A stretch of 64,000 nucleotides of DNA, taken from positions 1-64,000 of the forward strand of contig WBOU01000001.1 in NCBI GenBank assembly GCA_009268125.1, in the 5' to 3' direction. The notes under the pieces were generated by a model. It was not told where the DNA came from, ran no database searches, and worked only from the letters and a program-made list of their open reading frames with translations. The DNA comes from Chloroflexia bacterium SDU3-3 (GTDB lineage Bacteria; Chloroflexota; Chloroflexia; Chloroflexales; Roseiflexaceae). Of the stretch, positions 31,435 to 34,911 are shown piece after piece. The translations under genes and the position numbers were made by a program. Every line of letters starts with the position of its first letter. The stretch's first letter is position 1.

Positions 31435-32511
31435 ATGAACACACCGCTGGAAAACCTTTGGGAGCAGATCCGCCACGCCACCAGCGCGGATGCGGTCTTC
31501 GGGCCGATCGGGGCGGGCGACATGGCCGCGCTGAAGCGCCGCTACCGCGAGCTGGCGCAGATCGCCCACCCCGACCATAACCCGCGCCAGCAGGCGCTGG
31601 CGCAGCAGGTGTTTCAGTCGCTGTCGCAGTGGTACCAGCTGGCCCAGGCCGAGCTGGCCGATGGCCGCTATGGCGCGCCGCCTCGGCTGCACGTGGCGGG
31701 GCGGCTGCACCACTACGTGGGCACGGGCGAGCCATGGTCGGGCGACCTGTGCCACCTATTCCCCGCCGACGCCGACGGCACGCCGGTGCTGCTGAAGATG
31801 GCGGGCGACCCGCACAACCGCGACCTGCTGCTGGCCGAGGCCGAGGCCCTGGACACGCTGGATGCGGCCCTGGCGGGCAGGCCGGTGCGCGCCCACTTCC
31901 CCACCCTGATCGAGCAGCTGCTGGTCGAGGATGAGCATGGGGTGATGCGCCAGACCAACGTGCTGCGCCGTGAGCGCAGCGTGGCGTCGCTGGCCGAGGT
32001 GCGGCGGGCCTACCCGCGCGGCGTGCACCCCGCCGATGCGGCCTGGATGTTCAACCGCATGCTGGCGGCGCTGGCGCTGGCCCACGACCACGGCCTAGTG
32101 CATGGTGCGGTGCTGCCCGAGCACGTACTGGTGCGGCCCGACGACCACAACGGCATCCTGATCGACTGGTGCTATAGCGTGGGGATGGGCCAGCCCATCC
32201 GCGCGATCAGCCCGGCGAACTATGGCATGTACCCGCCCGAGGTGCTGGCCAAAGAGCCAGCGACGGCGGCCACCGACATCTACCTTGCGGCACGGACGAT
32301 GGTTGTGCTGCTTGGTGGCAATGGAGTTCAGCTGCCGAAAAGTGTGCCTGCGCCCATCCGCAACCTGCTGCAGTCCTGCCTCATTCCCTCGCCCATCCGC
32401 CGCGCCAACGATGCCTGGCAGCTGCTGGAGGACTTCCGCGAGGTGCTGGATGACTGCTATGGTCCGCCGACATTTCGCCCGTTTCGTATGCCGATCTCGG
32501 CTTTTGTGTAG
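31435..32511 (+). CDS. J-domain fused to a pseudokinase
   Basis: Protein of 358 residues. Residues about 8-75 form a J-domain with the HPD motif intact (H45-P46-D47 in IAHPDHN), so it should stimulate an Hsp70 ATPase. Residues about 80-345 look like a protein-kinase fold: K121 (VLLKMA) fits the ATP-binding lysine and D244 (LIDWC) the DFG aspartate. The catalytic loop reads HGAVLPEHV (223-231), where the catalytic HRD aspartate is Ala. It is therefore predicted to bind nucleotide or a partner but not to phosphorylate. The start has AAGGTGAG upstream and lies 8 bases after the second palindrome. It is the first gene of the operon with the vWA and PurA-like genes. Confidence 0.85.
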   Translation: MNTPLENLWEQIRHATSADAVFGPIGAGDMAALKRRYRELAQIAHPDHNPRQQALAQQVFQSLSQWYQLAQAELADGRYGAPPRLHVAGRLHHYVGTGEPWSGDLCHLFPADADGTPVLLKMAGDPHNRDLLLAEAEALDTLDAALAGRPVRAHFPTLIEQLLVEDEHGVMRQTNVLRRERSVASLAEVRRAYPRGVHPADAAWMFNRMLAALALAHDHGLVHGAVLPEHVLVRPDDHNGILIDWCYSVGMGQPIRAISPANYGMYPPEVLAKEPATAATDIYLAARTMVVLLGGNGVQLPKSVPAPIRNLLQSCLIPSPIRRANDAWQLLEDFREVLDDCYGPPTFRPFRMPISAFV

Positions 32512-32532: not shown

Positions 32533-33519
32533 ATGGGAGGATCTTACTGGAGCGACGACGCCTACGCGGCACGCCAGAACCGCCGCTCGGCCACCGGGGC
32601 CACCGCGTTCACCTACGATGCCCACGTGCGCTCGACTGGCAAGGTGGAGGTTCACCCGCAGATGAACCCCTACGGCGTGACGCGCGAGAGCCGCGACAGC
32701 GACGCGCACCCCAGCTCGCTGGCGATCGCCGTGATCTTTGATGTGACCGGCTCGATGGGCAGCGTGCCGCGCACGCTGCAGACCAAGCTGGGCGCGCTGA
32801 TGCGCGTGCTGGTGCAGCGGGGCTATGTGGAGCACCCGCAGATCCTGTTCGGGGCGGTGGGCGATGCCTACTGCGACCAGGTGCCGCTGCAGATCGGCCA
32901 GTTCGAGTCGGGGCTGGAGATGGACGACGAGCTGGGCAAGATCTACATCGAGGGCGGCGGCGGCGGCCAGGTGTACGAGTCGTATGAGCTGGCGATGTAC
33001 ATGATGGCGCGGCACACCTCGATCGACTGCTACGAGAAGCGCGGACACAAGGGCTACCTGTTCACCATCGGCGACGAGCACCCCTACGCGTCGATCAGCC
33101 GCAAGCAGGTGGCGTCCGTGATCGGCGACCGGCTGCAGGCCGACCTGCCGCTGCCCAAGCTGCTGGCCGAGCTGCACGAGCGCTATGAGCACTTCCACAT
33201 CATCCCCACCAACACCAGCCACGGTGGCGACAAAGCCATCCAGCAGGGCTGGCAGAAGCTGCTGGGCGAGCGTGTGCTGATGCTGGCCGACGAGGGCGCG
33301 GTCTGCGAGACGGTGGCGCTGGCCATCGGCCTGAGCGAGGGCGTGGTGGGCAGCCTGAAGGATGCTGGCGACGACCTGGTGGCCTCGGGCTATGACGACA
33401 GCGCGGTGGCTACCGCGTCGGCGGCGCTGGTGCCCTACGCATCCAAGCACGGTGGGGCCACGCGCACTAAAGGTCTGCTTGGCCTCGCATCGATGCTGAA
33501 CCTGGGCGGTCGGCTGTAG
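32533..33519 (+). CDS. vWA (MIDAS) protein
   Basis: Protein of 328 residues with a von Willebrand A-type fold. The metal-site motif is FDVTGSMG (D70, T72, S74), a DxTxS form of DxSxS, after an N-terminal stretch rich in charged and aromatic residues. Other notable parts are a glycine run (EGGGGGQVYESY), the region GYLFTIGDEHPYASIS and HFHIIPTNTSHGG. No signal peptide or membrane span: intracellular. A perfect AAGGAGG precedes the ATG, suggesting strong translation. vWA proteins of this kind bind partners through Mg2+ and often work with chaperones or ATPases, which fits the J-domain gene 21 bp upstream. Its exact role is unknown. Confidence 0.85.
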   Translation: MGGSYWSDDAYAARQNRRSATGATAFTYDAHVRSTGKVEVHPQMNPYGVTRESRDSDAHPSSLAIAVIFDVTGSMGSVPRTLQTKLGALMRVLVQRGYVEHPQILFGAVGDAYCDQVPLQIGQFESGLEMDDELGKIYIEGGGGGQVYESYELAMYMMARHTSIDCYEKRGHKGYLFTIGDEHPYASISRKQVASVIGDRLQADLPLPKLLAELHERYEHFHIIPTNTSHGGDKAIQQGWQKLLGERVLMLADEGAVCETVALAIGLSEGVVGSLKDAGDDLVASGYDDSAVATASAALVPYASKHGGATRTKGLLGLASMLNLGGRL

Positions 33520-33528
33520 TTGCTTGAA

Positions 33529-33558
33529 AGCAGGTGTGGTTCAGCCGCCACACCTGCT
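33529..33558 (+). repeat. 11-bp hairpin between vWA and PurA-like genes
   Basis: AGCAGGTGTGG (33529-33539) pairs with CCACACCTGCT (33548-33558) around an 8-base loop. No T-run follows, so it more likely tunes expression of the third gene or stabilises the upstream mRNA than ends the operon. Its loop holds the TTCAGCCG motif found after other genes here. Confidence 0.6.
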
Positions 33559-33582: not shown

Positions 33583-34911
33583 ATGGGCGATGTGTTTCTG
33601 ACGGTCGATCTGGGCTTTGGCGACGCGGGGAAGGGCGGCATCGTCGACTACCTGACGCGCGCCAGCGGGGCGCACACGGTGGTGCGCTACAATGGCGGCG
33701 CGCAGGCCGCGCACCGCGTGGTCGAGGGCGGGCGCGAGCATGTGTTCAGCCAGTTTGGCAGCGGCACGCTAGCAGGCGCTGCCACGCACCTCTCGCGATT
33801 CATGCTGGTGGAGCCGCTGGCCATGGAGTCCGAGGCCGCGCACCTGCGTCGCCTGGGCGTGGCCGAGCCGTTCGATCTCACCACAATCGATGCGCAGGCC
33901 CTGGTGATCACGCCGTTTCACCGCGCCACCAACCGGCTGCGCGAGCTGGCGCGCGGGCCTGGCCGCCACGGCAGCTGCGGCATCGGCGTGGGCGAGGCGG
34001 CGGCTGATGCGCTGGCCCACGCCGCGCACGCGGTGCGCATGGGCGACATGCACCACCCCAACGCGCTGTATGCCAAGCTATGTTTCCTGCGCGATCTGGC
34101 GCTGGCCAAGCTGCGCACCTTCGAGGATCGCATCCTCCCGAGTGCGCAGGCCGAGGCCGAGCTGGAGCTGCTGCACGACCCAGACTGGGCCGACTGGCTG
34201 CTGCCCGCTTACCGCGATTTCGCCGCGCGCGCCCAGGTGGTGCCCGGCGAGCATGTACGAGGGCTGCTGGCCCGCCCTGGCGCGGTGATCTTCGAGGGGG
34301 CGCAGGGCGTGCTGCTCGATGAGTGGCGCGGCTTCCACCCCTACACCACCTGGAGCACCACCACGCTGGCCAACGCCGACGCGCTGCTGGCCGAGGCAGG
34401 GCATACTGGCGCGGTGACGCGCTTGGGCCTGACGCGGGGCTACGCCACCCGCCACGGCGCAGGCCCGTTCGTGAGCGAGGATGCCGGGCTGACGGCGGCG
34501 CTGCCGGATGCGCGCAATGGCCACGGCACGTGGCAGGGCGGCTTCCGCGCGGGATGGCTGGACATGGTGATGCTGCGCTACGCGCTGGATGTGGTGGGGC
34601 CGCTGGATGGCTTGGCGGTGACATGCCTGGATCGGCTGGCGGATCTGGGCGAGCTGCGTGTCTGCCAGCGCTACACCTGCGCGGGGCGCGACCTGGAGCG
34701 GCTGGCGATCTCGCCCGACCCGCGCGACCTGGCCCACCAGGAGCGGCTGACGATGCAGCTTCTCGCCTGTGTGCCCAAGCATGTGGCGCTGGCATCGGCG
34801 GATGCGCTGATCGATCATCTTGAGCGCGATCTAGATATTCCTGTTGCGATCACATCATATGGTTCAGACGCCACACGGAAACAGCAGATGCAGCCATTTT
34901 TTCAACGGTAG
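33583..34911 (+). CDS. Divergent adenylosuccinate synthetase-like enzyme
   Basis: Protein of 442 residues with the PurA fold. The P-loop region reads GFGDAGKGG: the general base D14 and K17 of PurA are kept, but PurA's following Glu is Ala. The IMP-site histidine is H44 (GGAQAAHRV). FEGAQGVLLD and TRHGAGPF are conserved. The aspartate-binding loop, arginine-rich in PurA (TTGRRRR), is GTWQGGFRAGW near residue 317, and the guanine-recognition TKxD is TCLD (347-350). These changes suggest a changed amino-acid or nucleotide substrate. Phage PurZ enzymes differ in the opposite way (the base Asp is lost). The start at 33583 has GGAG upstream; an upstream TTG is rejected. Its place beside J-domain and vWA genes argues against housekeeping purine synthesis. 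Confidence 0.85.
   Translation: MGDVFLTVDLGFGDAGKGGIVDYLTRASGAHTVVRYNGGAQAAHRVVEGGREHVFSQFGSGTLAGAATHLSRFMLVEPLAMESEAAHLRRLGVAEPFDLTTIDAQALVITPFHRATNRLRELARGPGRHGSCGIGVGEAAADALAHAAHAVRMGDMHHPNALYAKLCFLRDLALAKLRTFEDRILPSAQAEAELELLHDPDWADWLLPAYRDFAARAQVVPGEHVRGLLARPGAVIFEGAQGVLLDEWRGFHPYTTWSTTTLANADALLAEAGHTGAVTRLGLTRGYATRHGAGPFVSEDAGLTAALPDARNGHGTWQGGFRAGWLDMVMLRYALDVVGPLDGLAVTCLDRLADLGELRVCQRYTCAGRDLERLAISPDPRDLAHQERLTMQLLACVPKHVALASADALIDHLERDLDIPVAITSYGSDATRKQQMQPFFQR

Follow-up and report, generated by a model that had tools for sequence, protein, structure and literature searches.

The question raised by this locus is what an altered relative of adenylosuccinate synthetase does in a bacterium that also carries the ordinary enzyme. 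The window is a stretch of 64,000 nucleotides from contig WBOU01000001.1 of Chloroflexia bacterium SDU3-3, and the protein encoded at 33583–34911 was described in an earlier note as PurA-like, with the catalytic residues kept and the aspartate and guanine sites remodelled. The name PurA2 is coined here for the clade to which this protein belongs. Its gene is the last of three lying in one direction:

31435–32511, + strand: fusion of a J-domain-like segment and a kinase-like domain, the latter likely a pseudokinase (HRD Asp replaced, HGAVLPEH); from a Pfam DnaJ score just under the cut-off and kinase families
32533–33519, + strand: vWA-domain protein, the constant partner of PurA2, with Met-Gly at its N-terminus; from its fold, the MIDAS-like motif DVTGSMG and linkage
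33583–34911, + strand: PurA-like enzyme (PurA2), 442 aa; from PF00709, alignment, structure model and trees

By eye, a GGAG precedes the ATG of the PurA2 gene by a few bases, and the GC content of this stretch is about that of its surroundings. The protein matches Pfam PF00709 over residues 10–429 with 206.5 bits (E = 7.6e-61). With the NCBIfam purA model it scores 169 bits against the 402 required for an equivalog, and seven of seven further members fall likewise far under that cut-off, so that none of the eight tested reaches any. The NCBIfam model for PurZ (amino_Aden_PurZ, cut-off 300) gives 31.5 bits for the window protein and 24–59 bits for the other seven, all below the cut-off. The AlphaFold model (pLDDT 89.5, pTM 0.91) is unliganded and has low pLDDT at residues 247–250. 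Its top PDB matches are all PurA, with Z of ~40 and 2.2–2.5 Å over ~395 residues (1iwe_B: Z 40.6, 2.2 Å, 392 residues; 1cg3: Z 39.8), and PurZ and PurZ0 come after these at Z 30–31. A normal purA elsewhere in the genome, for which the earlier note had advised a search, was found at G000:C5, positions 288391–289650 (563 bits to PF00709). The genome also has purB (TIGR00928, 355 bits) and purH; PF10397 is uninformative as a purB marker here, as it misses the E. coli protein too. The window gene encodes a PurA paralog in a genome that also has the ordinary purA.

The active site was compared in an alignment of 90 PurA2 rows (the window, 80 loci of one collection, two other genomic sequences and seven from phages, plasmids or viral contigs; row L101 starts late) with 17 canonical PurA rows, mostly from Chloroflexota relatives, together with E. 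coli. Residue numbers given by three-letter code are those of E. coli PurA in the literature. The relevant positions in the window are:

33622–33633, + strand: codons D14–K17 (Asp13–Lys16), catalytic base and phosphate-loop lysine, kept (D 89/90, K 89/90)
33712–33714, + strand: codon H44 (His41), catalytic acid, kept (H 90/90)
34318–34359, + strand: codons 246–259, DEWRGFHPYTTWST, a family-specific block on the IMP side of the site; from the alignment, with low pLDDT at 247–250
34453–34455, + strand: codon H291 (Val273, near ribose C2'), H 90/90
34525–34557, + strand: codons 315–325, GTWQGGFRAGW, in place of the aspartate-binding loop (Arg303 deleted 90/90, Thr301 to Gln 90/90)
34621–34632, + strand: codons 347–350, TCLD, in place of TKLD (Asp 89/90; Lys to His 60/90, Cys 28/90)

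D14, K17 and H44, singled out in the earlier note, are thus present and aligned to Asp13, Lys16 and His41. Of the other activation residues Glu221 is found in all 90 rows, and Gln224 (89/90), Thr239 (90/90) and the guanine-reading Asp333 (89/90) are also kept. The loop that binds aspartate in PurA is rebuilt. Arg303 is missing from every row by a single-residue deletion, Thr301 is always Gln (Q318 of the window), Thr300 is Trp (58) or Tyr (29), making W/Y317 nearly invariant, and Arg305 is Phe in 80; Thr300, Thr301, Arg303 and Arg305 are present in all 17 canonical rows. One loop arginine, R322 of the window (Arg306), is retained. The loop sequence is as first reported and keeps the same register in two independent alignments, one by MAFFT and one by a HMMER profile of 35 members against PDB chains of PurA from E. 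coli and other sources, and the second places the deletion at the same point. Outside the loop, Val273 is His in 90 rows, Asn38 is Gln in 89, Thr129 is Cys in 88 and Ser240 is Trp in 86. Arg143, which reaches the 5'-phosphate from the other subunit, is His146 in the window; Arg occurs at that column in 6 of the 90 rows and within three columns of it in 15, in a stretch that aligns less surely. The guanine motif reads TCLD, again as reported. The Vibrio phage protein deviates at N38, T129, K331 and D333. Because the loop and site replacements recur in 80–90 of 90 relatives, they are not chance or sequencing quirks.

The roles as base and acid and the contacts to phosphate, ribose and guanine named here are those of the corresponding E. 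coli residues. The mutant structures bear on what the two lost arginines mean for catalysis. In PMC8342488, passages on the active site have R303 of E. coli facing O2' of IMP and aspartate, and an Arg of the other subunit pairing with the α-phosphate. By its title, PDB entry 1cg4 contains E. coli PurA R303L with GDP and 6-phosphoryl-IMP, and by PDB titles the R143L mutant was also crystallised with 6-phosphoryl-IMP; therefore, losing Arg303 and Arg143 need not block activation. The R303 loop and the 247–250 loop are mobile in the PurA fold, and the side-chain roles in PurA2 are read from the alignment alone, given an unliganded model of low confidence at 247–250. The residues of the chemistry are kept and the substrate contacts are replaced equally uniformly, which argues for re-specialisation and not decay.

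The phylogeny proposed in the earlier note as a check places PurA2 outside canonical PurA and not within it. In a tree of 38 PurA2, 17 PurA and one PurZ, PurA2 forms one side of a branch with support of 100/99, and in a tree of 25 PurA2 against 14 PurA the support is 100/100; the latter PurA set included an archaeon, Bacillota, Bacteroidota, Legionella and divergent paralogs of Plesiomonas and of genome G083. The single PurZ row falls outside PurA2, on a very long branch (4.4). On these sequences PurA2 is a large, well-supported clade outside canonical PurA and probably outside phage PurZ. A search of one species-level collection gave 165 confirmed matches, of which the best 80, analysed as loci, come from Chloroflexota, Actinomycetota, Myxococcota, Variovorax, Uhrbacteria and Paceibacterota, and further members occur in Alphaproteobacteria, on plasmids. 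The divergent paralogs on the Plesiomonas plasmid (L125, 4989–6245) and in G083 (L122, 2302–3651) group with PurA. Two small CPR genomes reached through their PurA2 loci (G367 with L060, G370 with L068) have two PurA2-like genes each and no canonical PurA detected.

With E. coli PurA (1ade/1cg0 series) PurA2 thus shares the whole fold, the GDxGKG loop and the residues listed above as kept, and differs in the deleted Arg303, in the other replacements and in forming its own clade. PurZ and PurZ0 of Z-DNA phages (7odx, 7vf6, 6fm1) are likewise re-specialised relatives in the same superfamily, and phage-borne too. The changes in the two cases are not the same: PurZ has lost Asp13 (to Ser) and still uses aspartate, according to passages in PMC8342488 and PMC12884076, whereas PurA2 retains Asp13 and lacks the aspartate loop, and the structural match between them is weaker (Z ~ 30). 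The contrast with PurZ drawn in the earlier note is therefore borne out, the PurZ of Acinetobacter phage SH-Ab 15497 having Ser in GSTGKG where 89 of the 90 PurA2 rows have Asp and the window reads GDAGKG.

The gene immediately upstream is inherited almost in lock-step with PurA2. Of the 80 loci, tblastn shows 73 to have the vWA gene upstream of PurA2. In six of the seven misses (L038, L043, L046, L048, L054, L086) PurA2 starts ~310 bases or less from the contig end, which leaves 73 of 74 loci with usable flank and one true miss, L090. Among 100 close genomes, 14 have a full-length PurA2, 13 of them with the vWA gene on the same contig, and in the fourteenth (G066) PurA2 begins at the contig edge; two more (G076, G077) have PurA2 fragments, and a vWA match occurs without PurA2 in G060 alone, where it is a short relic that contains a stop. 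Across 301 genomes of the phylum the vWA profile matches 13, with PurA2 adjacent in 11; the exceptions are G339, with fragments of both genes, and G336, with a distant vWA and no PurA2. In the Myxococcus/Pyxidicoccus loci (L057, L063, L074, L097, L098, L102) a second vWA gene lies directly downstream of PurA2. The vWA protein has no Pfam match at 0.001; its AlphaFold model (pLDDT 90.3) resembles integrin beta I domains (Z ~ 16, rmsd 2.8, 190 residues aligned). The MIDAS-like motif is well kept (D70 77/78, T72 72/78, S74 77/78), and the aligned proteins start with Met in 71 and Gly in 70 of 78, including the most divergent phage copies. In the gap between the vWA and PurA2 genes of the window (33530–33557) there is a perfect 10-bp inverted repeat, GCAGGTGTGG / CCACACCTGC, with an 8-base loop and a folding z-score of − 3.1, and with no T-run after it.

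The first gene of the window operon is less constant. Its product scores 25.7 bits against Pfam DnaJ (cut-off 27.8) with the HPD motif present, and matches kinase families in NCBIfam, PADLOC and PHROGs. The Asp of the HRD motif is Ala in 43 of 50 homologs and Asp in three (Ala225 in the window), and in the DFG motif 29 of 50 have Gly for Asp, which the window copy retains as Asp244; the VAIK Lys (46/50) and the C-helix Glu (48/50) are retained. From this pattern the kinase-like partner is likely a pseudokinase. SelO is a precedent for unusual activity in a kinase-like fold, and by that analogy an activity of this kind is conceivable here. The kinase-like gene was found by tblastn in 47 of the 80 loci and a Nudix/NrtR-like gene in 36; these genes are non-obligatory, or too diverged to detect. 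The Nudix gene lies upstream in Catellatospora and relatives, downstream in Nocardia/Rhodococcus and divergently in Allorhizobium. Two of three Nudix neighbours tested have the NrtR winged helix, and the operon neighbours of Catellatospora and Uhrbacteria resemble NrtR in joining Nudix and NrtR_WHD domains, but the window operon has no Nudix gene beside it and the Nudix box of the Rhodococcus/Nocardia neighbours looks degenerate by eye. Among the gene groups common to many loci, as judged by eye from a crude clustering of open reading frames with many wrong-frame shadows, none looks like a second adenylosuccinate lyase beside PurA2. A known defence system was considered and set aside, as the PADLOC models cover neither PurA2 nor the vWA protein and match the pseudokinase only as a generic kinase. 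On plasmid pAtS4e of Allorhizobium ampelinum S4 (L114, 7479–12954) AAA ATPase, DUF5682 and DUF4132 genes come after the PurA2 operon, which also has a type VI VgrG gene nearby.

The same pair of genes is carried by phages. PurA-like matches (tblastn, E 1e-5) were found in 226 of 50,697 phage records, 189 of them from Mycobacterium phages. Searching with the PurA2 of Vibrio phage TDDLMA gave 189 Mycobacterium, 10 Rhizobium and 6 Vibrio phage records, and its vWA protein gave 207 records, made up of 188, 10 and 6 from the same groups and three others; host-like sequences are present among the remaining PurA matches listed. The C1 mycobacteriophage Gizmo has the order kinase, vWA, small gene, PurA2, and the PurA2 gene appears among the C1 features listed in a genome announcement (PMC9476963). 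In Rhizobium phage TM2_3B and in TDDLMA the vWA and PurA2 genes adjoin, with no kinase match found in the stretch examined of either. A scan of IMG/VR with peptide patterns returned one contig, probably because the patterns are strict, and in it kinase, vWA and PurA2 are all present after a terminase-like gene. A Kuttervirus with adenylosuccinate synthase and vWA was dropped as a further case: the table in PMC10892097 has them on two separate lines, and no Kuttervirus is named among the matches listed of 227 PurA2 and 207 vWA phage records. PHROGs 2971, 3043 and 1211 between them match the vWA, kinase and PurA2 proteins of Gizmo at full length, and the window proteins match too, but 2971 is without function, 1211 mixes PurA, PurZ and PurA2, and no library examined links all three. 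PHROG 1211 is labelled 2-aminooxy adenylosuccinate synthetase, and E. coli PurA (489 bits) and PurZ (383 bits) match it as well; because it covers all three, its label is misleading on mycobacteriophage genes.

We lean, by a little more than an even chance, towards PurA2 being a third functional branch of the PurA superfamily: a ligase that activates a purine with GTP, takes a new acceptor and a nucleophile that is not free aspartate, and works with the vWA protein. D14 as base and H44 as acid would help GTP to phosphorylate the lactam oxygen of a purine-like acceptor, as in the first half of the PurA reaction, and the activated carbon would then be joined to an amine other than free L-aspartate. 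The earlier note had thought a different amino acid, nucleotide donor or acceptor likely. A different amine is supported by the replacement of the aspartate loop across the whole clade, which makes free aspartate unlikely. A different acceptor is supported by the change of V273 to H at the ribose 2' position and, at the 5'-phosphate, by the loss of R143 and the changes of N38 to Q and T129 to C; as the residues that read the 5'-phosphate and 2'-OH have been exchanged, plain IMP in its usual binding mode is probably not the acceptor. Against this, a rearranged pocket with the retained T239, Q224 and D13 would also allow ordinary IMP binding. A different donor does not follow, as only Lys331 beside Asp333 has changed, and GTP is the likely donor because Asp333 stays. 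PurA2 and the vWA protein encoded directly upstream would work as one unit, with the J-domain pseudokinase probably serving as an adaptor or to recruit a chaperone. An NrtR-type Nudix protein may regulate or serve the pathway in many lineages; these Nudix neighbours are only a hint towards ADP-ribose or dinucleotide chemistry.

The kept chemistry also bears on two readings in which nothing is ligated. One, which we think unlikely, is that PurA2 is a pseudoenzyme: by binding GTP, a purine nucleotide or both it would be the sensor or switch of a complex of vWA protein and pseudokinase. The kinase-like partner is itself degenerate, the vWA fold found in the other partner is usually a binding module, and the aspartate contacts are gone; sensors usually relax residues that are mainly catalytic, however, and Asp13, Lys16, His41 and Gln224 are each kept in 89–90 of the 90 rows. 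The other, to which we give a still smaller chance, makes PurA2 a GTP-dependent kinase: a purine or other lactam would be phosphorylated and let go, as a product or a signal, and no amine would take part. Kept activation residues beside a lost amine site would fit such a half-reaction, as would the 6-phosphoryl-IMP held by the R303L structure, but a free 6-phosphoryl purine would be labile and the loop is not simply lost: the invariance of Q318 and near-invariance of W/Y317 make it probable that something binds there.

It is very unlikely that PurA2 is simply an isozyme of adenylosuccinate synthetase in which a rearrangement of the aspartate site is tolerated. The fold and its best structural matches are those of PurA, and Asp13, His41, Gln224 and Thr239 are kept; but the members tested miss the NCBIfam purA cut-off, the clade is separate, Arg303 is absent throughout, and 13 of the 14 PurA2 genomes of the 100-genome sample have canonical PurA as well (it was not found in G061). 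Eight CPR (Patescibacteria) genomes were reached through their loci, and all carry PurA2. Canonical PurA was found in two (G365, G371) with none detected in six, PurB in two (G369, G371; below the curated cut-off) with none detected in six, and pieces of purH in one (G370), so that four (G364, G366, G367, G368) are without detectable PurA, PurB or PurH. These absences speak against PurA2 as a step to AMP, in a supportive and not decisive way because the genomes are partial MAGs of completeness not established. On residue pattern, scores and trees, a canonical isozyme was rejected as the leading view.

The preferred ligase reading has one narrower form, for which we see only a slim chance, in which the substrate is a protein: a GTP-activated purine nucleotide would be attached to the N-terminal glycine of the vWA partner, presented to PurA2 by the J-domain pseudokinase. 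The Met before a Gly is normally removed, leaving a free glycine amine. Such a reaction would account for the lost contacts to free aspartate, the kept activating residues and a vWA gene that is almost never separated from PurA2; a structural reason for the Met-Gly start is equally conceivable. Last, that PurA2 serves a modified base in phage or cell DNA, as PurZ does, is suggested by its presence in at least three phage groups and by the PHROG 1211 label, but it is most improbable and was rejected as the leading view, as that label, given also to E. coli PurA and PurZ, says little, the hallmark change of D13 to Ser is absent, all eight members tested stay at 24–59 bits on the PurZ model (cut-off 300), and most of the divergent PurA2 lineages found are bacteria with the operon.

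Literature searches, mostly outside subscription papers, found no description of the PurA2 clade or operon, and PurA has so far been treated as one reaction with a single variant, PurZ. A 2026 survey of phage PurA homologs sorted 767 sequences into 251 PurA and 151 PurZ (PMC12884076); by subtraction, 365 fall in neither, and these are not discussed in its section on the sorting. The kind of enzyme is thus known, and the PurA2 branch and its operon appear undescribed; operon, clade and phage copies are a larger finding than the residue changes from which the earlier note began. That a third branch keeps the chemistry while its amine and acceptor site is rebuilt uniformly leads one to expect a new ligation on a purine-like molecule. 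Lock-step inheritance of PurA2 and vWA across several bacterial phyla and at least three phage groups suggests that the product or complex matters to hosts and phages, and the shared vWA partner points to an undescribed nucleotide-based pathway. Annotating PurA2 as adenylosuccinate synthetase leads to errors when purine pathways are reconstructed, as for those reduced CPR genomes where PurA2 is the only PurA relative found.

Two further features of the phage loci were seen. For many of the C1 mycobacteriophages the vWA match is limited to query residues 42–172 (for example MZ958745.1, 148840–149229, and NC_054722.1, 151863–152252), and in phage Sauce the annotated feature under the partial match is an HNH endonuclease, which suggests that a homing endonuclease gene is inserted in the vWA gene. 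In Rhizobium phage TM2_3B an annotated NMN adenylyltransferase/Nudix gene (L119, 1669–2241) and a phosphoribosyltransferase gene both lie a few kb before the vWA–PurA2 pair.
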